The notes under the pieces are model-generated. The model worked only from the letters and a program-made list of their open reading frames with translations. It was not told the DNA's origin and made no database searches. From assembly GCA_903905585.1 (NCBI GenBank), contig CAIVHB010000167.1, positions 1 through 46,300 of the forward strand: 46,300 bases of DNA, read 5' to 3'. Of this stretch, positions 8,641 to 46,300 are shown piece by piece. How positions within the stretch are numbered: position 1 is the first letter of the stretch; each line of letters starts with the position of its first letter. The position numbers and the translations under genes are program-made. The DNA is from an uncultured Ferrovum sp. (lineage in GTDB: Bacteria; Pseudomonadota; Gammaproteobacteria; Burkholderiales; Ferrovaceae).

Positions 8641-10260
8641 TTGCAAGTTGTTTGGTTCAAACGTGATTTAAGAGTCTTTGATCATGCTCCCTTAGCCTCT
8701 GCGCTGAGGCAGGGAGCGGTTCTGCCCTTGGTGATCGATGAAGCCTCAATATTGTTCGCCCAAGACCAATCACTTCAGCATGGGCAATTTCGTGAAGAGT
8801 GTCTCGAAGAACTCAGGCGTGAATTACTCAAAATCGGAGCGATTCTGCATCGGGAGTGTGGAGAAGCGGTCCAAGTACTAGAAAAAATATGGACCACCCG
8901 GAAGTTCAGCCATCTTTGGAGCCATGAAGAAACAGGAAATGCGCTCACCTATCGACGCGATTTAGCAGTGAGAGCATGGTGTAAAACACGCAAGGTCGAA
9001 TGGATAGAATACCGGCAGTTTGGAGTCATTCGCAGACTCAAAAGCAGAGATGGTTGGTCAAACCAATGGGATATGCTGATGCGTTCACCCTGTATTTCCC
9101 CAATCCAACGTTTATCCGGAGTCGTTTTACCCAAATCCATTTATTCCGATGCGCATCCTTTCAAAAATTTTTCTGATGCATCCAAATGGACTTCACAGAC
9201 ACCCAAACGGTTTTCAGAAATTAAGGACAAACCGCAAAGGCAGCGAGGGGGGCGCAAAGCAGCTCTGATGTTACTCTCCAGCTTTTTAGAGGGACGTGGC
9301 GCCAATTATTCTAAAGGGATGTCCAGCCCCCTATCTGCTGAAATGGTCTGCTCACGTCTGAGCCCGCATCTCTCGCAGGGCACGGTTTCAATCAGAGAAA
9401 TCGTACATGCGCTTCAGGAAAAACGCGTAGAAATCGATACCCTCCCCATTCACCTCAAACCTAAAGGGATGGCGGGAGCCATGCGCGCATTCGAAAGCCG
9501 ACTCTATTGGCATTGCCATTTCATTCAAAAACTTGAGAGCCAGCCTAGTATTGAATTTGAAAATATTCATCGTGGCTTTGATGGTATGCGTGAAACGCAG
9601 TTTGATGCATCACGATTTCAGGCATGGAGTAAAGGTGAAACAGGCTACCCCATGATCGATGCTTGCATGCGCATGTTGGCACAAACAGGTTGGATCAACT
9701 TCAGGATGCGGGCCATGCTCGCTTCCTTCTCTGCTTACCAGCTCTGGCTTCACTGGCGAGAGCCTGCACTGCATTTAGCACGAGAATTTTTGGATTATGA
9801 ACCTGGCATTCACTATTCTCAAATTCAAATGCAAAGTGGTGTAACAGGAATCAACACGCCACGGATGTATAACCCAGTTAAGCAAGCGCGTGATCAAGAC
9901 CCTGATGGTATGTTTGTGAAACGTTGGATACCCGAATTGCAGTCGGTTCCTCATGATTGGATTTTTGAACCTTGGTTAATGCCGCCTAGCCTTCAAAACC
10001 GTTTTGGCTTGGTGCTGGATAAGGATTATCCAAGCCCCATCGTAGATCATGAAGTGGCTGCACGTGAGGCTAAGCAACGTTTAAGCTTATTTAGACAGGC
10101 AACTGACTTTCGCTCTACTGCAAAAAAAGTGTTGTCTCGACACGGGAGTCGCCAATCAAATGATCGCAATGTGACAGAGAGAAAGAAAAAAACACCCTCT
10201 ACCACTTCGTCCAAAGCAATATCTAAACGGGACACTCAAGGCACTTTCGATTTTGGCTAA
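8641..10260 (+). CDS. Divergent cryptochrome/photolyase-family flavoprotein
   Basis: The 539-residue product starts at TTG with GAGGTGA about ten bases upstream. The N-terminal alpha/beta antenna domain is clear (V-V-W-F-K-R-D-L-R-V-F-D-H at residues 3-15). The C-terminal FAD domain has T-G-Y-P-M-I-D-A-C-M-R-M-L near residue 333. Two class I CPD-photolyase landmarks are altered: the usual H-N-R becomes N-F-R, and the D-G-D-L-A-S-N-x-x-x-W-Q-W segment is replaced by D-Y-E-P-G-I-H-Y-S-Q-I-Q-M-Q-S-G around residues 385-400. The last 60 residues are basic and low in complexity. It belongs to the superfamily and probably binds FAD, but whether it repairs DNA or senses light cannot be decided. It overlaps the next photolyase gene by eight bases. 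Confidence 0.88.
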   Translation: MQVVWFKRDLRVFDHAPLASALRQGAVLPLVIDEASILFAQDQSLQHGQFREECLEELRRELLKIGAILHRECGEAVQVLEKIWTTRKFSHLWSHEETGNALTYRRDLAVRAWCKTRKVEWIEYRQFGVIRRLKSRDGWSNQWDMLMRSPCISPIQRLSGVVLPKSIYSDAHPFKNFSDASKWTSQTPKRFSEIKDKPQRQRGGRKAALMLLSSFLEGRGANYSKGMSSPLSAEMVCSRLSPHLSQGTVSIREIVHALQEKRVEIDTLPIHLKPKGMAGAMRAFESRLYWHCHFIQKLESQPSIEFENIHRGFDGMRETQFDASRFQAWSKGETGYPMIDACMRMLAQTGWINFRMRAMLASFSAYQLWLHWREPALHLAREFLDYEPGIHYSQIQMQSGVTGINTPRMYNPVKQARDQDPDGMFVKRWIPELQSVPHDWIFEPWLMPPSLQNRFGLVLDKDYPSPIVDHEVAAREAKQRLSLFRQATDFRSTAKKVLSRHGSRQSNDRNVTERKKKTPSTTSSKAISKRDTQGTFDFG

Positions 10261-11809
10261 CTCTAAAAGTACTTCAAAACTCATCTTGATCCTGGGTGAT
10301 CAACTCAGTCTAGGTTCTCCCTGCCTTAAAGAAATCAATACAGCTCAAGATCGTGTGTTGATGATTGAAGCAGCGGAAGAATCCACAACGGTCTGGTCCA
10401 GCAAGCAACGCATCGTAGTATTCCTCTCAGCGATGCGACATTTTTCAGAGAAGCTTAAAACGCTAGGTTTTCCGGTTGAATATTTATCACTCCAAAACCC
10501 CTTGTATGCGGGAGATCGCATCGTTGAACGCCTAGAATCCTTCATCGTATCTTTTCATCCCGCCAAGGTACTGATGCTTGAAGCAGGTGAATGGCGATTG
10601 GGCCAAGAGATTTCTGCTCTTTGTAAGAAACACGATCTTCCTTTGAGTGTGATCGAGGATTCACATTTTTTATGTTCGCATCAAGACTTTCAGGCATTTG
10701 CGAAAGGCAAAAAACGCATCATTATGGAAAACTTTTATCGCACGATGCGGCGTCGTGAAAACGTGCTCATGAATGGCGAAGAACCCATAGGCGGTGAATG
10801 GAACTTCGATAGCGAAAACCGTAAATCCTTTGGTAGCAAAGGCCCACAAGGCATTCAAGATCCGATTCGATTTCCTCCTGACCGCATCACCCAACAGGTC
10901 ATCGAAGAAGTCTCGCAGCGTTTTGCAGATCACCCAGGAACGCTGAATCACTTTGGGTGGCCCGTGACACGTGAGGATGCCTTGGTGGCCCTCAATGACT
11001 TTATTCAACACCGCTTACTCACCTTTGGCACACACCAAGATGCCATGTGGACGGATCAGGCCTTCCTCTCGCATGCACTCATCGGTTCCTCACTCAATCT
11101 TAAATTGCTTGATCCGCGTGAAGTCATTCAAGCTGCTGAAGCTGCCTACCAGAAGGGTTCAGCCTCTATTCAGGCAGTGGAAGGCTTTATTCGGCAAATC
11201 TTAGGTTGGCGTGAATTTATTCGGGGCATGTATTGGCTCGATATGCCCGCAATGAAAGAGGCCAATCATTTTGACCATCATCATCCATTACCTGCGTGGT
11301 TCTGGACGGGCAATACTCAAATGCGGTGCATGAATGAAGTCATTACCAGCACTATAGCCCAGGGCTATGCCCACCACATACAACGTCTGATGGTGCTTGG
11401 GCTGTTTGGCCTGGTAGCAGAAATTAACCCCAAAGAAGTATCGGATTGGTTTTTATCGGTGTATGTCGATGCAGTAGAGTGGGTAGAACTCCCCAATGTG
11501 ATGGGCATGGCACTGTTTGCCAATGGCGGACGCTTTACTAGCAAACCCTATGTGGCTAGCGGTGCGTATATCCATCGCATGAGCAATTACTGCAAACAAT
11601 GCCCCTACCAGCCTGAGCAAAAAGTGGGAGAACAAGCGTGCCCCATCACCCAACTGTATTGGAATTTTCTGGACAAACACGAGCAAGACTTCGCTTCTAA
11701 TCCGCGTACTTCGCTGATGATTAAAAACCTTCAACGCATTGAGCCTTCAGTGCGCGAGCAAATAAAGAACGAGGCAGAAATCATTCTCAACAATTTAAAC
11801 GCACGGTAA
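10253..11809 (+). CDS. phrB: Iron-sulfur bacterial cryptochrome/photolyase, (6-4)-photolyase type
   Basis: The 518-residue product belongs to the FeS-BCP/CryPro group typified by Agrobacterium PhrB, a (6-4) photolyase. Four cysteines occur at 359, 447, 450 and 463; the spacing 88-3-13 is identical to the [4Fe-4S] ligands of Agrobacterium PhrB (350, 438, 441, 454). The N-terminal antenna domain begins L-I-L-I-L-G-D-Q-L-S. The FAD domain holds G-W-R-E-F-I-R-G-M-Y-W and N-x-M-G-M-A-L-F-A-N-G-G-R-F-T-S-K-P-Y-V-A-S-G-A-Y-I. It should repair UV (6-4) lesions using blue light. The TTG start at 10253 overlaps the preceding gene, showing co-translation of two light-dependent flavoproteins. Confidence 0.93.
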   Translation: MANSKSTSKLILILGDQLSLGSPCLKEINTAQDRVLMIEAAEESTTVWSSKQRIVVFLSAMRHFSEKLKTLGFPVEYLSLQNPLYAGDRIVERLESFIVSFHPAKVLMLEAGEWRLGQEISALCKKHDLPLSVIEDSHFLCSHQDFQAFAKGKKRIIMENFYRTMRRRENVLMNGEEPIGGEWNFDSENRKSFGSKGPQGIQDPIRFPPDRITQQVIEEVSQRFADHPGTLNHFGWPVTREDALVALNDFIQHRLLTFGTHQDAMWTDQAFLSHALIGSSLNLKLLDPREVIQAAEAAYQKGSASIQAVEGFIRQILGWREFIRGMYWLDMPAMKEANHFDHHHPLPAWFWTGNTQMRCMNEVITSTIAQGYAHHIQRLMVLGLFGLVAEINPKEVSDWFLSVYVDAVEWVELPNVMGMALFANGGRFTSKPYVASGAYIHRMSNYCKQCPYQPEQKVGEQACPITQLYWNFLDKHEQDFASNPRTSLMIKNLQRIEPSVREQIKNEAEIILNNLNAR

Positions 11810-16753: not shown

Positions 16754-17647
16754 TTATAGGGTTGATGCCTTCCCTAAAACTTGGTTTTTCTTTTCTATTA
16801 AGTGCCAAATAAAGGGCGTAAAAATCAATTCCATAGAAAGAGGCATTTTTCCACCGGGGACTACAATCGTGTTTGCTCTGGACATAAAACTATCGTCAAT
16901 CATTTTGAGCAAATAAGGGAAATCAATATTTTTGGGGTCTGCGAAACGGATCACTACCATGCTCTCATCCGCGGTGGGGATATCCCTCGCAATAAACGGA
17001 TTAGAAGTATCGACCATGGGTACGCGTTGAAAATTCACATGGGTACGTGAAAACTGCGGAACGATGTAGTTCACATAATCAGGCATTCTTCGCAGAATCG
17101 TATTGGCCACCGCCTCGGTACTATAACCGCGTAGATTTTTATCTCTCCAGAGCTTTTGAATCCACTCTAGGTTGATCACGGGCACCACGCCCACCAGCAG
17201 ATCAGGGTATTGGGCAATATTGTGATCAGGGGTAACAACAGCCCCATGTAACCCCTCATAGAACAGAATGTCTGTGTCGGATTCAAGATCTTTCCAAGGC
17301 GTGAAGGTACCGGGCTCCTGATGATACAAAGCCGCATCTTCTATATTGTGAAGATATTTGCGGGCTTTACCTTGTCCAGTTTCAGAATAGGTTTTAAAGA
17401 GCTGTTCTATTTCTGAAAATAAGTTATTTTCCGATCCGAAATGGCTAAAGTTTTTATTGCCACATTTCTCTGCCTCAGCTTGCTGCACCTCCATCTCTGA
17501 TCGATTAAAGCGATGAAAGCTATCCCCTTCAATGATTGCTGCCTTAACACGCTCTCGACGAAAAATATTCGAGAAGGTACTCGTGACGGTAGAGGTACCA
17601 GCACCGGAAGAACCGGTGATGGCAATGATCGGATGACGAACTGACAT
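16754..17647 (-). CDS. prkB: Phosphoribulokinase (bacterial class I)
   Basis: The 297-residue product matches bacterial octameric phosphoribulokinase in length and motifs: P-loop G-S-S-G-A-G-T-S-T (residues 12-20), catalytic E-G-D-S-F-H-R-F, F-Y-E-G-L-H-G, and R-R-M-P-D-Y-V-N-Y-I-x-P-Q-F-S-R-T-H-V-N-F-Q-R-V-P. It phosphorylates ribulose 5-phosphate to ribulose 1,5-bisphosphate, the Calvin-cycle CO2 acceptor. No RuBisCO or other cbb gene is in the window; enterobacteria also carry prkB without RuBisCO, so autotrophy is not proven. The gene starts four bases after the peroxiredoxin stop, so the two probably share a transcript. Confidence 0.93.
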   Translation of the reverse strand: MSVRHPIIAITGSSGAGTSTVTSTFSNIFRRERVKAAIIEGDSFHRFNRSEMEVQQAEAEKCGNKNFSHFGSENNLFSEIEQLFKTYSETGQGKARKYLHNIEDAALYHQEPGTFTPWKDLESDTDILFYEGLHGAVVTPDHNIAQYPDLLVGVVPVINLEWIQKLWRDKNLRGYSTEAVANTILRRMPDYVNYIVPQFSRTHVNFQRVPMVDTSNPFIARDIPTADESMVVIRFADPKNIDFPYLLKMIDDSFMSRANTIVVPGGKMPLSMELIFTPFIWHLIEKKNQVLGKASTL

Positions 17648-24775: not shown

Positions 24776-25546
24776 GTGAGCCTGCCGCTGACACTCCCAT
24801 TAGAAAGAACTGAACGTTTAAAGGTCATTCGTGAGGCCTTTCCTGAATTAAACGGGCCAGATTGTCCTACACCAGGAGGGCGTGCGCAGGCATTCATTAC
24901 GCTATCCGGCATGGATCCCGTTGCCTATGGTCGCAGTCGCAATTATCTGGATGGATCGGTTACGCGCTTATCCGCATTTATACGTCATGGTTGTATTACC
25001 CTTTCTGAAGCCCGCCAAATATCGCTATCGCGTTGGTCGAGCTCGCAGGCCTTTAAGTTCATTTTTGAGCTTGCTTGGCGTGATTTTTGGCGTAGGGTTT
25101 GGAAAACCTTAGGGCCTGCCATACGCAAAGACATAGAAAAGCCCAAGGTCAAGCTTGGCCATGACCCGTTGCCCAATGATATTCGCCAAGGACAAACAGG
25201 GTTGCCCTGTATGGATGCATTTGTTCATGATCTTGTGGATACAGGCTACGTACACAATCATGCCCGGATGTGGTTCGCTGCTTACTGCATCCATTTTAGA
25301 AAACTCTCCTGGCGCTCATGTGCAGATTGGTATCTCGGCAATTTAATTGATGGCGATCTGGCCTCTAATCATTTGTCCTGGCAATGGGTAGCCTCAACTT
25401 TTGGATCCAAGCCTTACATCTTCAACAAAGAAAATTTGGCTAAGTATTCGGGAAACAAATGGTGTGCTTCATGCCAGGCTTCCTGCCCCTTTGATGACTC
25501 CTACCCAGGATTGCAAAAAAAACTATTTGGAGAGCAAAGCCAGTGA
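24776..25546 (+). CDS. Stand-alone photolyase/cryptochrome FAD-binding domain protein
   Basis: This 256-residue product corresponds only to the C-terminal helical FAD domain of photolyases; the N-terminal antenna domain is absent. Hallmarks are intact: G-S-V-T-R-L-S-A-F-I-R-H-G near residue 62, Y-V-H-N-H-A-R-M-W near residue 160, and G-D-L-A-S-N-x-L-S-W-Q-W near residue 195. A short C-terminal W-C-A-S-C-Q-A-S-C-P follows. FAD binding, and perhaps repair or light sensing, is therefore plausible. The GTG start has AAGAGG about seven bases upstream. The stop overlaps the next gene's GTG, and that gene looks like the missing antenna-type domain, suggesting a two-subunit photolyase. Confidence 0.85.
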   Translation: MSLPLTLPLERTERLKVIREAFPELNGPDCPTPGGRAQAFITLSGMDPVAYGRSRNYLDGSVTRLSAFIRHGCITLSEARQISLSRWSSSQAFKFIFELAWRDFWRRVWKTLGPAIRKDIEKPKVKLGHDPLPNDIRQGQTGLPCMDAFVHDLVDTGYVHNHARMWFAAYCIHFRKLSWRSCADWYLGNLIDGDLASNHLSWQWVASTFGSKPYIFNKENLAKYSGNKWCASCQASCPFDDSYPGLQKKLFGEQSQ

Positions 25547-37986: not shown

Positions 37987-39099
37987 TTAGTTTTTGGATT
38001 TCATCCCCCCTAACACCCCTTTTTTGGTAACGGGCTTCTCATCTTCTTCATCATCATCTCTATCTGAGTGTGGGTGAGGCCCGGGTACATAGTCAGGCGT
38101 TTTGGAAGCAATGAGCTCAGGATAATCCTGAACCATTGGGAATCCATACAAAGGCTTGTTCACCCCCTGATGGCAAGTGGCGCAGTAAATCTTTGGCCCG
38201 TCACCTGCTGGCCCCATGCGATTGAGAGGCAATAAGGTCGCTACCGTGGCTAAAGTGGTGTTATTTAAATCGCGCACCATCCGAATGCCATACCACGCAG
38301 TAGCCCGTTGCGGTCTACTCTGTTCCCAAGAATAAAAGGCTCGAGTGTTATGGCAGAAATCGCAGTTTACCCCCAATGATTCCGACATCACCATCATCAT
38401 TCCGTAGGTGTATTTAGCCTGCTTAATCGAACGGCGATTTGTGTTGTCGGCTAGGGCGTCCGTACCCACAATGCGTAGGTTATCATTGCCTAATAAATAA
38501 TGCTCTAGAACATCGGAAGGAAGCCCCGTATTGCCAGATGAAGCGGTAGGAAGACGCATAGGTGATCGGCCTGCAACCATTCCATGGGGATCGTTGTCAT
38601 TCGGTTTAAACCATATTTTTTGAGGGACATTATTCCCTCGATGGCAAGTCCAGCAGGTCACGCCGGTTTTCCCTACGTGCTCTTTCCAATCGCTATTAAT
38701 GTGGCGCACCATTTTGATCATTTCGCGCGCGACTAACTTAGGGTACTTGGTGTCCTCTTCGTAGTAAGGGGCGTTATGACAATACCCACAACCTTGCCCT
38801 GGTGCGACCCAATTCTTAATCGAGATCATGGTCCGGCCAAACTCTGACTTACTGTAGTCCCCGAGTAGTTGCACATTTTCATAGAATTCACCTGCGCGAG
38901 GGCCATCAGGATTTGCGGCAGGAAGAGGAACAGGTACTTTGTTTTTTTCAGCGAGCATGGCGATATCATGAGGTTTCGCATTTTGAACCAAGCCCAGCCC
39001 ACGGGGACCGAGCTGGGTGGTTTGCGTTTTCTCGCAAGCTGCGCTTAGAAACACTATTGCAGCGATAAGCAGAGGTGTTCCTAGGCGCGATAGTTGCAT
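37987..39099 (-). CDS. pufC2: Second tetraheme PufC-like cytochrome, lipoprotein
   Basis: Counting from the ATG at 39099, this 370-residue protein has a lipobox (L-S-A-A-C, Cys22) and four haem motifs: C104-G-Y-C-H, C149-W-T-C-H, C246-D-F-C-H and C306-A-T-C-H. The spacing and flanks (W-V-A-P-x-Q-G-C, T-C-x-x-C-H-R-G, S-L-G-V-N-C, Y-C-A-T-C-H-Q-G-V) match the reaction-centre PufC encoded at 43657-44814. It is a full-length paralogue with an acidic tail (D-R-D-D-D-E-E-D-E). An earlier in-frame ATG at 39147 overlaps the HiPIP-like gene. It is last in an operon with a Cyc2-like porin-cytochrome and a HiPIP-like gene, so it may be a dedicated electron entry point to the reaction centre. Confidence 0.92.
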   Translation of the reverse strand: MQLSRLGTPLLIAAIVFLSAACEKTQTTQLGPRGLGLVQNAKPHDIAMLAEKNKVPVPLPAANPDGPRAGEFYENVQLLGDYSKSEFGRTMISIKNWVAPGQGCGYCHNAPYYEEDTKYPKLVAREMIKMVRHINSDWKEHVGKTGVTCWTCHRGNNVPQKIWFKPNDNDPHGMVAGRSPMRLPTASSGNTGLPSDVLEHYLLGNDNLRIVGTDALADNTNRRSIKQAKYTYGMMMVMSESLGVNCDFCHNTRAFYSWEQSRPQRATAWYGIRMVRDLNNTTLATVATLLPLNRMGPAGDGPKIYCATCHQGVNKPLYGFPMVQDYPELIASKTPDYVPGPHPHSDRDDDEEDEKPVTKKGVLGGMKSKN

Positions 39100-39139
39100 G
39101 CTCTTACGCCTTTTTTTCAATAGAGCTTTTGTTATAAAT

Positions 39140-39520
39140 TTAAGCATCACTATGTTTTTTCTCAGTTTTTTTGTCCGCCCAGCCTTGACAGTAGCAATGT
39201 GAGCACACTTCACCAACCAAAAGCGCACAACTGCCCTTCTCGCTGTCTTTGGCTACGCCGGGCTCGAGTAGGGATACCGTGACTTTAGGATAGCCTTCAC
39301 TGTAGGGCTCAAAATTGGCACACCCCAAGCAGTTGTGACCCTTCTCATCGGGTGTGGTCTGGAAATAGAAATCTTCTTTATCAGATTTCCCTTTCTTTTT
39401 CTTGGCAGCAGCGGGTATCGATTGCATACCAATTGCCACTACACCAATCGCTGCAAGGAGTTGTGCCGCTTTACCCATCACTACGCGTCTTTCGGGTTGC
39501 TGAAGGTCTTGCTTACTCAT
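39140..39520 (-). CDS. Divergent HiPIP-like iron-sulfur protein with six cysteines, Tat-exported
   Basis: The 126-residue product has a twin-arginine signal (E-R-R-V-V-M at residues 10-15, then a hydrophobic stretch ending I-P-A-A-A). The mature part contains C64-L-G-C67, C98-A-L-L-V-G and C111-Q-G-W. This is the order of a HiPIP (C-x2-C ... C-A-L-x-x-G ... C), but with a roughly 17-residue insertion between the second and third Cys. Two extra cysteines (106 and 109) are present in a C-x2-C-x-C cluster. A Lys-rich segment follows the signal, and the C-terminus is charged. An excellent GAGGAGAG site precedes the ATG. It lies between the Cyc2-like and second pufC genes, consistent with a periplasmic shuttle. 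Cluster type is inferred. Confidence 0.78.
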   Translation of the reverse strand: MSKQDLQQPERRVVMGKAAQLLAAIGVVAIGMQSIPAAAKKKKGKSDKEDFYFQTTPDEKGHNCLGCANFEPYSEGYPKVTVSLLEPGVAKDSEKGSCALLVGEVCSHCYCQGWADKKTEKKHSDA

Positions 39521-39606
39521 TCATCTCTCCTCGTTAATGTGTTTTGATCACTTTTTAATAAAACTTCTCATTAAAAACTACAAAAAAAATAGGACTGAAC
39601 ACTGTC

Positions 39607-41106
39607 TTAATACAAGGACCACCACCCTAAATAGATCGTGTTGTTATCCCGAGCGTTTCTTCCAAAGCCGTTGTAATTGGTGCTAGCACCATTAAATTTG
39701 CTGTAGTCGGTGTATTGCAAAATGAGCCTGTTGCGACGTCGGTCCTCAGCATTATCCCAAGCAAATAGCCAGTTCAGCTCATAGATCATGGCTTGGCTAT
39801 TGGGACTATTCTTGAAATAAGCACTTGTAACACTGGAACCCGCCGCGCTGGTCGCAGCCCCATCGGGATATAAATTAGCATCTGAACTTCCTGATACGCG
39901 CTGATAACCCACACTCATTCCATACCATTTTTCATAGTAGTAACTGACCTTAGTATTGATCGCGCTAAGGTTGTTTCTTAGGTTGGATGAATTTTGTTGA
40001 ATAAATGACCCGTTCAAAGTTTGATCTTCATGCAAGTAATTAAACATGAAGCTCAGGCGATGCTTATCAGTGATGTATTGGTACTGCGCATCAATGCCTT
40101 TATCGTCATACACATCTGATGGCCCACCGCTTAACTGCGAGCCCCCTCCTGGTGTGGGATAAATACGCGGACGAAAACCATATGTACCAATCTCTACAGA
40201 CTGCACTCCGTTCTGCCAATCCTTCTGAAAAGCTAAGCGATAATAGGGTGCCAGACCATCTAGATTTGTAGTGCTGTTATTAATGGTGAAGGCGTGAAGA
40301 ACGCTTCTCGCATTGGTATAAGCACCCGCTTCAACGTAAAACAGGCGATTAATAAGTGAGTAAAAAGTCACTCCTACGACTGAATGCCCCAAATTATTGG
40401 CTGGCGATAAACTCGGGTTCATCCCCAGAATAGGAGCAGCGCCTGGCGTCACAGCCACCGAGGATGACAGATAGGGCCAGCCCCATACCCCCGTGGTGTT
40501 GTAAATATCGGACATCCCGGGATTATTATTCACGCTCATCCCATACAGTATTTTTAGGTTTTCGGTTTTATACTCCTCCTCGGGTACAAACCGAATTTCA
40601 GTGTTGTCTTGTGAGGCTTGATGGGTGATCCCATCATAGGTGTACTGGCAGAAGCATCCAATACCGTCGGCCAGCTTACCATTCAGAAAAAGAGAACCTG
40701 CCTGAAAGAGTGTTTGCCCATTGTATTGCTTAGGTACTTGTGCTGAATCGGCTGCACTTCCAGTAATCGAAGAATATCCCTGCTGCGATACATCCTGAGT
40801 AGAGGTCCGGGATACCTGCAACCACATCGCAAGAGGGATCACGGGCGGGGGATCATTGAAGTTGAATGAGACCAGAGGGCGGTTGGCCTCCTCGCTCTCT
40901 TTCATGTCCTTCATTTCTTGATAGCCACCAAGCTTAAAGCGGCGGCCTACATTGGTGAGCTCTAGCCAACTCATGTGGCATTGCGTACAGTCCCAACCCG
41001 TTTGGCGGGCAAATGAGGGAACCGCGTTGGCGTCATTGTGATAGACGAAAAGCAGGCTAAACAGAAGCAACAGGATGGGCATCCTGAACAAAATACGTGA
41101 GCGCAT
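39607..41106 (-). CDS. cyc2: Cyc2-like fused monohaem cytochrome-porin (outer membrane)
   Basis: The ATG at 41106 follows a GGGAGGA site by seven bases; the frame is open from a TTG at 41121. The 499-residue product has a signal peptide ending A-N-A (about residue 28). The mature N-terminus V-P-S-F-A-R-Q-T-G-W leads into a single haem site C40-T-Q-C-H44 and L-T-N-V-G-R-R-F-K-L-G-G-Y. The A-x-P-x-F-A-R-Q-T-G plus C-x-x-C-H start is the hallmark of Cyc2, the outer-membrane iron oxidase of many neutrophilic and acidophilic Fe(II) oxidisers. The remaining roughly 440 residues alternate polar and aromatic residues, as in a beta barrel, and end in W-W-S-L-Y with a terminal aromatic. Related porin-cytochromes need not oxidise iron, so the donor is inferred. 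Confidence 0.82.
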   Translation of the reverse strand: MRSRILFRMPILLLLFSLLFVYHNDANAVPSFARQTGWDCTQCHMSWLELTNVGRRFKLGGYQEMKDMKESEEANRPLVSFNFNDPPPVIPLAMWLQVSRTSTQDVSQQGYSSITGSAADSAQVPKQYNGQTLFQAGSLFLNGKLADGIGCFCQYTYDGITHQASQDNTEIRFVPEEEYKTENLKILYGMSVNNNPGMSDIYNTTGVWGWPYLSSSVAVTPGAAPILGMNPSLSPANNLGHSVVGVTFYSLINRLFYVEAGAYTNARSVLHAFTINNSTTNLDGLAPYYRLAFQKDWQNGVQSVEIGTYGFRPRIYPTPGGGSQLSGGPSDVYDDKGIDAQYQYITDKHRLSFMFNYLHEDQTLNGSFIQQNSSNLRNNLSAINTKVSYYYEKWYGMSVGYQRVSGSSDANLYPDGAATSAAGSSVTSAYFKNSPNSQAMIYELNWLFAWDNAEDRRRNRLILQYTDYSKFNGASTNYNGFGRNARDNNTIYLGWWSLY

Positions 41107-41347
41107 TTCTTTTCCTCCCAACTACATTTCAACCACTAAGTCTCTGTGGACTCATGATGGTTTATTTCTCTGTTCTAGTTTTTCCCCTTAAACAAGAATC
41201 TCCTTGTATGTAAAAACATGAGTGATCAATGCTGGGTTGAAAGTATGGGACTTAAAAATTAAAGCCATATCAATAACACCCTACATCATTTTTAATGTTG
41301 TTCTGTAAAATAGTGTAAGTCAAGCTGCGCTGCACTACTTTGTGCGT

Positions 41348-43617: not shown

Positions 43618-43650
43618 CAAAAAAACTGCGGAGCGGGGATGCTCCGCAGT
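43618..43650 (-). terminator. Primary Rho-independent terminator of the puf operon
   Basis: A perfect ten-base inverted repeat, ACTGCGGAGC/GCTCCGCAGT with a six-base loop (43625-43650), is followed on the minus strand by seven T residues. It sits directly after the pufC stop at 43657. It separates the reaction-centre genes from the downstream P450 and Cyc2-like operons. Confidence 0.92.
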
Positions 43651-43656
43651 GAGCCA

Positions 43657-44814
43657 CTAGTTCGCTGCCGTTTTGGCAGCACTTCCAATTTCTGCCTCTA
43701 GCTTTGCAGAAGCATTGCTTCTTGATTTCTTATTCTTTTTTGGCGATGACTCTTCGCTAGAATCCTTTGCTGCGGGAGCCACAACTACGCTTGGCGATGG
43801 GCCTTGAAGTTCGGGATAATCCCGAGCCATACTGACTCCATACAAAGGCTTGTAAACACCCTGGTGGCAAGTAGCACAGTAGGTTTTTGCCACATCACCC
43901 GTTGGGCCCAAACGATGCGCTGGGAACACTTCAGTCAAAGGCTTCATATAGTCATTGTTTAAATCTCTAACCATACGAATGCCATACCAAGCAACTGAAC
44001 GCTCAGGAGTACTTTGCTGCCAATCTGCAAAGGCTCGCGTGTTATGGCAGAAGGTACAGTTCACACCTAATGACTTAGAGAAATGCATCATCAATGCATA
44101 GGTCCACTCCGTTTGCTTAATCGACTGGCGATCTTCACCGGTTGGAATAGCGGTTGTGGATGCCATACGAATATTATCTTTGTTGTCGAGATAATTTGTG
44201 AAGGGATCAAAAGGAAGTGATGAATTACCCATCGATGGTTTTGGAGAACCCACGCCCATACGATTCCCTAAATAGCCCATTGCAGTGCGGGGGCCCTCAT
44301 CCTTAAACCAGATATTCGAAGGGACTGGATTGCCCCGGTGACAGGTATAACAGGTCACCCCGGTTGCCTGAACATGCGATTTCCAGTCAGCGTTGATATG
44401 ACGTGTCATCTGCAGCATTTTTCTAGCGACGACCTTGGTATACAGAGAGTCATCCGCAAAATTTGCCAAGTTATGGCAATACGCACACCCTTGCTGAGGC
44501 GCTACCCAGTTAGAGATCGAAAGCATGACGCGTGTAAATTGCCCGGCAGAAAGATCACCCAAGACTTGAACATTTTTATACACTTGCGACGCTCTTGGGC
44601 CACTGGGATCTGCAGCAGGAATCCCTTCAGGGACTTGATTGGCTGCAAAGTTTGCTTGCATTGTGGCGGGATGCTCCACATCCACCATTCCCGTCCCCCT
44701 AAAACCCCATTGAGCTGTTTTATTGGGAGGCAATTCACATCCTGCTAGCAATGCAATAGAAGCAATCAGCAAAAGTGTCTGGCGAGTGAACCGAGAAAAA
44801 TAGGTTTTATCCAT
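43657..44814 (-). CDS. pufC: Photosynthetic reaction centre tetraheme cytochrome c subunit
   Basis: The 385-residue product is a lipoprotein (lipobox L-L-A-G-C, Cys26) with four haem sites: C110-A-Y-C-H, C155-Y-T-C-H, C253-T-F-C-H and C313-A-T-C-H. Met-containing helices before sites 1-3 (V-M-L-S-I, M-L-Q-M-T, A-L-M-M-H) are the expected axial-ligand helices. It sits on the periplasmic face of the reaction centre and re-reduces the photo-oxidised special pair, taking electrons from HiPIP or cytochrome c. It is 13 bases downstream of pufM and is the last puf gene before the terminators. A Lys/Ser/Ala-rich C-terminal tail extends beyond the haem domain. Confidence 0.96.
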   Translation of the reverse strand: MDKTYFSRFTRQTLLLIASIALLAGCELPPNKTAQWGFRGTGMVDVEHPATMQANFAANQVPEGIPAADPSGPRASQVYKNVQVLGDLSAGQFTRVMLSISNWVAPQQGCAYCHNLANFADDSLYTKVVARKMLQMTRHINADWKSHVQATGVTCYTCHRGNPVPSNIWFKDEGPRTAMGYLGNRMGVGSPKPSMGNSSLPFDPFTNYLDNKDNIRMASTTAIPTGEDRQSIKQTEWTYALMMHFSKSLGVNCTFCHNTRAFADWQQSTPERSVAWYGIRMVRDLNNDYMKPLTEVFPAHRLGPTGDVAKTYCATCHQGVYKPLYGVSMARDYPELQGPSPSVVVAPAAKDSSEESSPKKNKKSRSNASAKLEAEIGSAAKTAAN

Positions 44815-44827
44815 GGAAAACGTATCC

Positions 44828-45808
44828 TTAGTTGGTTGGCGCGCCAGGCAACGTGGCCGGATCCACTACGGGCATGATTGGGTAGGCTGGGGCAACGTGG
44901 TGTTTAACAGCCCATAAATACCAGTTATCTACAGCAGTTCCCGTCAGCAAGATTCCAATACCACCTGTGAGTGGGCAGAGAATTGCAAACCACCAAGCCC
45001 AACGGTGAACGGATTCCATCGTGGCGTTAAAACCCATGGTCCAGCGCCAGAACAAAGCAGCACGTTCAGAGGCGGTTCCACGATCAATAATCTGCTCGAT
45101 TTCGCGTTCACCACCATAACGCCCCACGGCCAAGATGGTGGCGCCATGCATCGCAAACAGCAGCGCCGAACCATACAGAAAAACAATCGACAACATGTGG
45201 AAAGGGTTATAGAACAGATTGCCATAACGCAGAGACAAAGCAGCAGTCCAGTCTAAATGAGGGAAGAAACCAAATGGAGGTGCTTCACCCCATGCACCCA
45301 TGAGTATCGGACGGAAGAAACCCAGCACCATATACAGCCAAATCGCGGCACCAAACGCCCAACAAACATGCAATCCCAATCCCAGTTGTTTGGCGATACG
45401 ATAAGTACGTATCCACCACAGGAAAATAGCGGCAGTCAAAAATGCACCGTCGATCAACCACCACCCTCCTTCGCGTAATGGAGGGGTATGCAATCCATAA
45501 GCGGGTGAAGGAGGTTCCAGTGCTAACCAAGGCCATAATCGAAGAAATTGAACGGGATCCCAGTTCACTGAAGCCCACATATTGAGACCAATAATCTCAA
45601 AAGCGATCACACCACATAGTATCGAGGCGATACCAAACCAGCCCAAAAAAATAGGGCCAATTCGAGCATTACCAATCTTACCAGCAAGGTAAAGATGGAA
45701 AGAGCCAGAACTCCTATCGAATACGGTGTTCTCCTCCATGGGCACCGTATGGGGATGGGCGCTCCTAACCTGAGTACGGGTAAAGATATTTTGATATTCA
45801 ATATTCAT
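44828..45808 (-). CDS. pufM: Photosynthetic reaction centre subunit M
   Basis: The 326-residue product has five membrane helices with the expected pigment and iron sites: [25 protein letters not shown] (helix D area, including bacteriochlorophyll and non-haem-iron His), [11 protein letters not shown], and E-S-V-H-R-W-A-W-W. It pairs with PufL to hold the special pair, bacteriopheophytins, quinones and the iron. It starts 12 bases after pufL with a GGGGAGAG ribosome-binding site. The C-terminal extension ending P-G-A-P-T-N is usual for PufM with a bound cytochrome subunit. Confidence 0.97.
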
Positions 45809-45820
45809 GATGCTCTCCCC

Positions 45821-46300
45821 TTATTTCCAGAACGGCAAGTCAAGCCACCATGACCACCACTCAGGCCAGCCTTTTGTCCAAAATGGTCCGCTAATAATGA
45901 TGCAAACCGCACTCCAAAAAACAGCATTGAGCGCTAGCACTAAACCAAGGCGGTGAATGCCTAAAGTTCCAACTGAGTAGCCAATTAAATCTAAGAAGTA
46001 GGTATCTTCATGTTCAGGGGTTTTTACAATCTGTCCACCACCCGGGTTAGTCGCTGACAACACCAGCGCTCCATGCAAGGCCAAGGCTAAACAGTTGGTA
46101 AAGAAGAAGGTGATCGCCAACATGTGCGCAGGGTTATAGTGGAAATGCAGGTATTGATAACCCACATTAGAGACCCAGTCTAAGTGCGCCAAGATTCCAT
46201 AAGGGAAACCATGACCCCAAGCACCCAGCAAGAGGGGGCGGATCACCACCAAGCTCACATACGCAAAAATTGCAACGCTGAAGGCAAATGGAACGTGATA
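45821..46300 (-). CDS. pufL: Photosynthetic reaction centre subunit L, C-terminal part (gene runs off the window)
   Basis: The frame is open to the last base and gives the final 159 residues of PufL. It contains [47 protein letters not shown] with an iron-ligand His, [10 protein letters not shown], and a Trp-rich end (W-P-E-W-W-S-W-W). The upstream part, and probably pufB and pufA, lie beyond the right edge. Confidence 0.96.

Follow-up and report, generated by a model that had tools for sequence, protein, structure and literature searches.

We analyzed a 46,300-nucleotide stretch of DNA (hereafter the window), which is contig C167 of a 2.29 Mb metagenome-assembled genome (MAG; G000, 99.5% complete, 4.7% contaminated) of an uncultured Ferrovum sp. 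At 37987-41106 on the minus strand it carries three genes in direct succession, encoding a Cyc2-type outer-membrane cytochrome-porin (39607..41106), a HiPIP-like protein (39140..39520) and PufC2, a second tetraheme reaction-centre cytochrome (37987..39099). A sequence-only reading of this DNA had reported three successive minus-strand genes near pufLMC; the list of open reading frames (ORFs) bears this out, with 2.55 kb between the end of pufC1 and the start of Cyc2. The Cyc2 ORF extends to a TTG at 41121, with an ATG at 41106, and is separated from the HiPIP gene by 86 bases. The HiPIP and PufC2 genes either overlap or lie 40 bases apart, depending on the start of PufC2. An ATG at 39147 would make it overlap the end of the HiPIP gene, whereas one at 39099 yields a clean lipoprotein leader (both are likelier than GTG 39228). 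Since the same gene order recurs in bog_994, a MAG from another Burkholderiales family, the gene set did not come together by chance. It is a real, conserved and unusual module.

The Cyc2 protein has 499 amino acids, and its leader is followed by A-V-P-S-F-A-R-Q-T-G-W-D-C-T-Q-C-H, so that the Cyc2 motif named earlier, A-x-P-x-F-A-R-Q-T-G ahead of C-x-x-C-H, is indeed present. The protein (PSFARQTGWDCTQCH, 499 amino acids) satisfies the Cyc2 screen of PMC8406198, which combines PXFAR[Q/K][T/Y] N-terminal to CXXCH with a length of at least 365 amino acids (the literature is cited here throughout from parts of the published texts). An AlphaFold2 model built with 48 sequences (mean predicted local distance difference test score (pLDDT) 79.8, predicted template modelling score 0.81) yields the anticipated barrel and haem domain: 16 strands, counted by eye from DSSP in this predicted structure, span residues 92-498 after an N-terminal haem domain. 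Judged by title, outer-membrane barrels make up nearly all of the 50 Foldseek matches listed for the model, the porins among them having template modelling scores by query length of mostly 0.34-0.42. The protein contains all 48 columns that are invariant across a 12-row alignment and is 29-36% identical to 11 aligned Ferrovaceae Cyc2s. In a 75-row tree, the window Cyc2, L090 and the bog_994 protein group together (support 100), nested in a 13-row Burkholderiales clade (100) that stands apart from the Ferrovum-type Cyc2 and from the two other Cyc2 copies of G000. This tree includes 57 Cyc2 rows from 80 named loci (motif filter, 23 dropped, L091 added manually), its support values come from the Shimodaira-Hasegawa-like approximate likelihood ratio test only, and it holds no Acidithiobacillus, Mariprofundus or Leptospirillum reference sequences and no Chlorobium row. 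It places the window protein inside Cyc2 diversity, as far as a tree without reference sequences of the published clusters can.

Pairing with a HiPIP gene is common in this clade. Such a gene lies directly downstream of Cyc2 in 10 of the 13 members (the window, L090-L095, L096, L097 and L098), the L096 copy carrying an in-frame stop. The L099 contig ends 113 bases past Cyc2, and L100 and L101 have no HiPIP within 2.5 kb of Cyc2. A tetraheme gene accompanies three of the ten pairs (the window, L090 and L091); the L092 contig ends 228 bases after the HiPIP gene and is uninformative on this point. Our ORF filter missed the HiPIP genes of L091 and L096, which were recovered by direct frame reading, and the HiPIP negatives at 68 loci outside the clade are therefore soft; other regex matches were judged spurious by eye. 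Outside the clade, L118 has a plausible HiPIP gene ~700 bases downstream of Cyc2. Among 29 further Cyc2 loci that were screened and are not in the tree, a Cyc2 ORF was found in 25, and the sole regex match was not HiPIP-like.

The three Cyc2s of G000 each have different neighbours. The copy on C26 (L041) lies next to a diheme cytochrome c, and that on C105 (L042) next to a pair of cupredoxin-like proteins and near a multicopper oxidase-like protein. The first cupredoxin-like protein matches amicyanin below the cut-off, and the multicopper oxidase-like protein is below every cut-off.

The HiPIP-like protein (126 amino acids) is Cys-rich and has a twin-arginine leader. Taken alone, it has no Pfam match up to E 10, and its best match in the PDB is a HiPIP at E 0.84. 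When it is aligned with eight relatives encoded downstream of Cyc2, the cysteines C64, C67, C98 and C111 (C-x2-C / C / C) and the twin arginine are invariant in all nine. PF01355 is matched by six of the nine at E<=1 (best 1.9e-9), the window protein not being among them. The joint profile of the family finds 16 PDB sequences at E<=1, of which 15 are HiPIPs, with a best E of 2.4e-12 and PioC at 7.9e-9. The assignment as a HiPIP is thus weak from the window sequence alone and good through its family, and the earlier description of a Tat-exported, Cys-rich HiPIP-like protein holds by way of the twin arginine, the four cluster cysteines and the family profile matching solved HiPIPs. The window protein also has an extra cysteine pair, C106 and C109, beside the last cluster cysteine (VCSHCYC), common in the alignment only to G003 and bog_994 (VCKHCYC). 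An extra cysteine near the cluster has been described in Ferrovum HiPIP-41, which has a potential of 571 mV (PMC10879576). Elsewhere in its own family, the window HiPIP finds only weak matches (E 0.001 to 0.1).

PufC2 scores far above the cut-offs of PF02276 (403 bits against 22.4) and of the PufC equivalog NF040706 (416 bits against 150) and has four CxxCH motifs and the lipobox LSAAC, confirming it as a tetraheme PufC-like lipoprotein. It is one of only two PufCs found in G000. Its kinship rests on the tree, because it is ~50-55% identical to PufC1 and to the bog_994 PufC2 alike. In the tree, the window and bog_994 PufC2s form one clade (100/99; 100/98 with 64 rows) apart from the Ferrovaceae PufC1. 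The kinship of the Cyc2s, the type of HiPIP and the common order of the genes all point to this grouping as well. Across 55 canonical PufCs, 62 columns outside the CxxCH motifs show conservation of 95% or more; PufC2 retains 57 of them and its bog_994 counterpart 59. With 92%, PufC2 is at the low end of the canonical rows themselves (89% upwards, median 100%), only two of which are lower. Common to the window and bog_994 PufC2s are a change from Glu to Lys before the haem-3 helix (place read by eye) and one from Leu to Val. An origin of PufC2 by duplication of PufC1 within the genus was rejected: the tree separates the two, and the constrained tree is disfavoured (p = 0.043, with groups named post hoc). 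A constraint uniting all second PufCs in one family gave p = 0.51, and such a family is neither rejected nor demonstrated.

The operon is present in two of the five genomes of the genus (G000 and its sister MAG G003) and in bog_994 (PLEY01000126.1), whose proteins are 53% (Cyc2), 46% (HiPIP) and 54% (PufC2) identical to those of the window. We place bog_994 outside the window's family because that family counts 32 genomes, whereas the family of bog_994 gave 145 from a larger group; G424, drawn with that group, takes the PufC place of G169 (family f8). The three genes are thus linked in relatives, as the check suggested earlier had asked; in bog_994 they are not near puf. There, pufL is found with the start of pufM where one contig ends, and part of a PufC where a different contig ends. 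Both G000 and G003 have PufL, PufM and PufC1, and PufC2 was seen beside the pair only in G000, G003 and bog_994, all of which bear puf genes. G002 and G004 lack the operon, and downstream of their pufC come the membrane protein (61%) and cytochrome P450 (61-64%) that also follow it in the window, which marks the operon as an accessory insertion, or its absence as a loss. The operon ORFs are intact in all three genomes that carry it. Between G000 and G003, none of three changes in PufC2 and one of three in HiPIP are non-synonymous, and the ratio of non-synonymous to synonymous rates in Cyc2 is 0.13. The two PufC2s (370 amino acids) are identical, and synonymous divergence is 0.21 for PufC1 and 0.01 for PufC2. 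The sister-MAG Cyc2s (39607-41106 and L039:2914-4425) are identical over their first 191 residues and diverge in the C-terminal half, with indels at ~417-427, which looks like recombination, diversifying loops or mis-binning.

More widely, 20 of 398 genomes from across the phylum score above the cut-off for PufC, and among them two PufCs showed up in the window's genome alone. Second PufCs elsewhere occur in genus g9 (5 genomes) and G381; G238 and G352 each have two PufC fragments that may be one gene. In genus g9 (L083-L087) the second PufC lacks the leader cysteine, and in G164 (L086:8633-10274) a HiPIP-like gene precedes it. Within the window's family, the Ferrovaceae, PufC was found in four of 32 genomes, all of genus g1. 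Phototrophy has been reported for a single genus of the Ferrovaceae, GTDB CAIVHB01, for which the name 'Ca. Solisferrum' was proposed (PMC13390463) and which is very likely genus g1. The operon contig of G003 is identical to CAIPTD010000115.1, from 'uncultured Ferrovum sp. Ki1-0-7m_bin-0142' (Ferrovaceae by NCBI name). Ki1 is presumably Kiruna Ki1 in Sweden, which is among the sites of a dataset of stratified lakes and ponds (PMC8121793).

Upstream of the operon on the minus strand lie PufL (45821..46300, PF00124, truncated by the window edge), PufM (44828..45808, PF00124) and the canonical reaction-centre cytochrome PufC1 (43657..44814, PF02276 and NF040706). The Cyc2 operon is probably a unit separate from puf, because pufC1 is followed by a strong terminator-like hairpin (43625..43650, minus strand; 10 pairs, 7 of them GC, with a T run) that probably divides the two operons. 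It is the strongest of 12 such sites in the region, where shuffled sequences give 7.0. No sigma-70-like promoter was scored in the region upstream of the operon (41107..41347, minus strand), in a scan that returned five promoter-like sites, fewer than the 9.6 from shuffled sequences. The gap between Cyc2 and HiPIP (39521-39606) contains a run of eight Ts and has no terminator score. At the window edge, 46004-46300, inside pufL, matches bases 1-297 of contig C44 at 97% identity; C44 would hold the rest of pufL or a strain variant, and the MAG probably combines two variants of a strain. The window also has two genes of the photolyase family and a further, partial match to an FAD-binding photolyase (8641-11809 and 24776-25546), consistent with a sunlit habitat. 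The window had no match among 72,556 plasmid records, which says little about a plasmid origin.

Our combined findings suggest, with moderate confidence, that the operon encodes an electron-uptake line feeding the photosynthetic reaction centre, probably with Fe(II) as the donor. The outer-membrane Cyc2, with its single haem, would oxidize an extracellular donor, most likely dissolved Fe(II), and the exported HiPIP-like protein would ferry the electron across the periplasm. The lipoprotein PufC2 would then take up the electron and hand it to the photo-oxidized special pair, either taking the place of PufC1 on some reaction centres or relaying to PufC1. There are precedents: Cyc2 oxidizes Fe(II) (PMC8406198), the HiPIP PioC shuttles between PioAB and the reaction centre in a known pathway of photoferrotrophy, and HiPIPs are known donors to PufC, one having been co-crystallized bound beside haem 1 (PMC7889895). 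The proposal builds on a gene order that recurs in two families, on the predicted barrel, the HiPIP kinship, the conserved PufC features of PufC2 and the co-occurrence with puf; from these we infer the donor, the direction of flow, the pairing of HiPIP with PufC2, the docking at the reaction centre and the physiological pay-off. The wire from an extracellular donor to the reaction centre that was envisaged earlier is retained as the best reading, given a predicted barrel, a place inside Cyc2 diversity and genes linked in relatives, but strict photoferrotrophy goes too far.

Several results weigh against such a line. The window Cyc2 lies outside the Cyc2 sequences known to have been tested biochemically. 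The HiPIP model is poor (pLDDT 49) and its fold match weak (E 0.63), and we rejected the fold as proof of identity for that reason. The long branches of the window and bog_994 PufC2s meet, and when either is omitted the other has no supported neighbour, so their grouping may be due to long-branch attraction. The 53.6 kb operon contig of bog_994 has no match to PufM or to a second PufC. Among 399 Burkholderiales genomes, PufC was found in 48 and Cyc2 in 88 (E<=1e-20), both being lower bounds given that at most four candidates per genome were scored and some matches are partial; the two co-occur in four, where ~11 would be expected if they were independent. Those four, counted by eye, are G000, G004, G125 and G345; the genes are adjacent only in the window, and the stretches around the Cyc2s of G125 and G345 contain no PufC. 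RuBisCO and sulfur oxidation raise further difficulties. No match to the RuBisCO large subunit (PF00016) was found in G004, nor in G000 (99.5% complete) or G003 (94%), in both of which a missed gene is possible, and SoxB is above cut-off in six of six genomes and in none of 14 controls, so that thiosulfate could feed the reaction centre. In PMC13390463, thiosulfate or Fe(II) is considered the likely donor, the absence of PioAB together with the presence of sox suggesting thiosulfate in three of four species. The operon weakens the argument from missing PioAB, without settling the donor, and if it works as we propose, the case for thiosulfate in phototrophic Ferrovaceae is weaker insofar as it is based on that absence.

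For the organism of the window, strict photoferrotrophy, that is, CO2 fixation on Fe(II) and light, is thus not supported, with no RuBisCO in G000 or G003, and because none was found the pay-off may be photo-lithoheterotrophic. The genus has likewise been described as having no Calvin cycle, with MAG incompleteness as a possible cause (PMC13390463). RuBisCO is present in bog_994 and in G001, which has no Photo_RC or PufC match, and G002 has a partial match of 53 bits; the control search was also positive in Bacillus subtilis, and weak matches may be RuBisCO-like proteins. A phosphoribulokinase is encoded in the window (16754-17647; NF011997, 497 bits), although its genome gave no match to the RuBisCO large subunit. 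Two full-length SoxB genes (C71 and C8) occur in the 2.3 Mb MAG, where a second strain may be mixed in.

The best-placed alternative is respiratory Fe(II) oxidation, in which Cyc2 and HiPIP feed a terminal oxidase or bc1, in the manner of chemotrophic iron oxidizers, and PufC2 is an extra periplasmic tetraheme buffer with no need to contact the reaction centre. The Cyc2-HiPIP pair does occur at seven loci of other Burkholderiales (L092-L098), of which six have no tetraheme gene in the stretch examined, and the genomes of L095 and L098, which have the pair and no PufC2, gave no Photo_RC match (two of two tried). A Ferrovum HiPIP-41 has been proposed to act in iron oxidation (PMC10879576), and the genus has been placed in oxygenated water (PMC13390463). 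Against this explanation, PufC2 was found in the operon only in the three puf-bearing genomes, and we take the conservation of 57 of 62 canonical PufC positions to be beyond the need of a free cytochrome. We consider it unlikely. It is less probable still that the line serves a donor other than Fe(II) (humics, Mn or a solid surface, extracellular or periplasmic), with the Cyc2 of this clade as a general electron inlet. The literature covered yielded no biochemistry on any member of this Burkholderiales Cyc2 clade, which includes Telluria, Massilia and Pseudoduganella, none of them known as iron oxidizers. Additional functions of Cyc2 have also been suggested (PMC8406198). Against this, 3.3-54.6 mg/L Fe(II) was measured at the sites of two species of the genus, and Cyc2-type iron oxidation is reported as a common Ferrovaceae trait (both PMC13390463). 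An incidental adjacency, with a Cyc2-HiPIP pair and a surplus copy of PufC that came to lie together where the photosynthesis cluster ends and are decaying or neutral, would fit the operon-free pufC-membrane protein-P450 block of G002 and G004, but is very improbable in view of the same order at ~50% identity in another family, there not beside puf, of intact ORFs in all three genomes and of the few non-synonymous changes between G000 and G003.

It is conceivable, although we stop just short of calling it probable, that purple (PufLM) bacteria have a route of phototrophic electron uptake that starts from Cyc2 and is relayed by a HiPIP, in which a duplicated reaction-centre cytochrome is dedicated to the extracellular donor, alternative donor cytochromes being pluggable into one reaction centre. 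The module, the Burkholderiales Cyc2-HiPIP pair joined to a divergent PufC, would then have reached both families through transfer or been inherited from an ancient ancestor. If so, gene order, beyond mere co-occurrence, would tie the widespread iron-oxidation protein Cyc2 to a type II reaction centre, and one reaction centre with exchangeable donor cytochromes becomes a directly testable idea. As a compact genetic marker, the operon would also help to find organisms of this kind in lakes and bogs rich in iron.

The suggestion that a purple betaproteobacterial version of Cyc2 phototrophy would be new needs qualifying. In the texts covered, discussion of Cyc2 phototrophy centres on green sulfur bacteria, with a genome-based proposal for Acetobacteraceae, and the purple-bacterial photoferrotrophy operons described are Pio and Fox. 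However, PufLM, PufC, Cyc2 and sox were already reported for 'Ca. Solisferrum' (GTDB CAIVHB01), very likely the same genus as that of the window, with its Cyc2s put in cluster 2 (PMC13390463). What stands is the operon and the second PufC, neither of which is mentioned in the covered part of that paper, and 'HiPIP' is absent from its main text. No description of a Cyc2-HiPIP-PufC2 operon was found in titles and the beginnings of abstracts (including PMC10715153 and PMC10654088; supplements and subscription papers aside), and a phrase search of the literature gave no mention of a second pufC.

Among known systems, the acidophilic or photosynthetic Acetobacteraceae are similar in that Cyc2-driven iron oxidation has been proposed in purple-type phototrophs and their kin (PMC10715153). 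Their Cyc2s, by contrast, lie beside mono- or diheme cytochromes, with electrons proposed to pass to cytochrome oxidase, and the part of that paper covered mentions no Cyc2-HiPIP-PufC operon. Ferrovum and Acidithiobacillus combine Cyc2 with a Cyc1-like diheme, a sequence of Cyc2 and then a periplasmic acceptor that is also seen in Ferrovaceae relatives and on C26 of G000; unlike there, the acceptor in the window would be the HiPIP and then PufC2. Genus g9 (family f2; G164, L086) shares with the window a HiPIP-like gene (identified by eye, with no NCBIfam match) that stands ahead of a second PufC, but it has no adjacent Cyc2 and no leader cysteine, and G081 has a gene for a monoheme cytochrome c close by. 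Green sulfur bacteria use a type I reaction centre without PufC. The Cyc2 of photoferrotrophic Chlorobium (Cluster 1) is, as in the window, a Cyc2 in a phototroph and, in the texts covered, the proposed start of Fe(II) oxidation; the window Cyc2 differs in belonging to a HiPIP-linked Burkholderiales clade, in a tree that has no Chlorobium row. Similar in plan is PioABC of Rhodopseudomonas palustris TIE-1, which also joins an outer-membrane inlet to a HiPIP (PioC) serving a PufLM-type reaction centre. Decaheme PioA and porin PioB are absent from the window operon, the only part of the genome in which they were looked for; its inlet is a monoheme Cyc2, and it adds its own PufC. The Cyc2 line may thus be the counterpart of PioABC, with Cyc2 instead of PioAB and with a dedicated reaction-centre cytochrome in addition.

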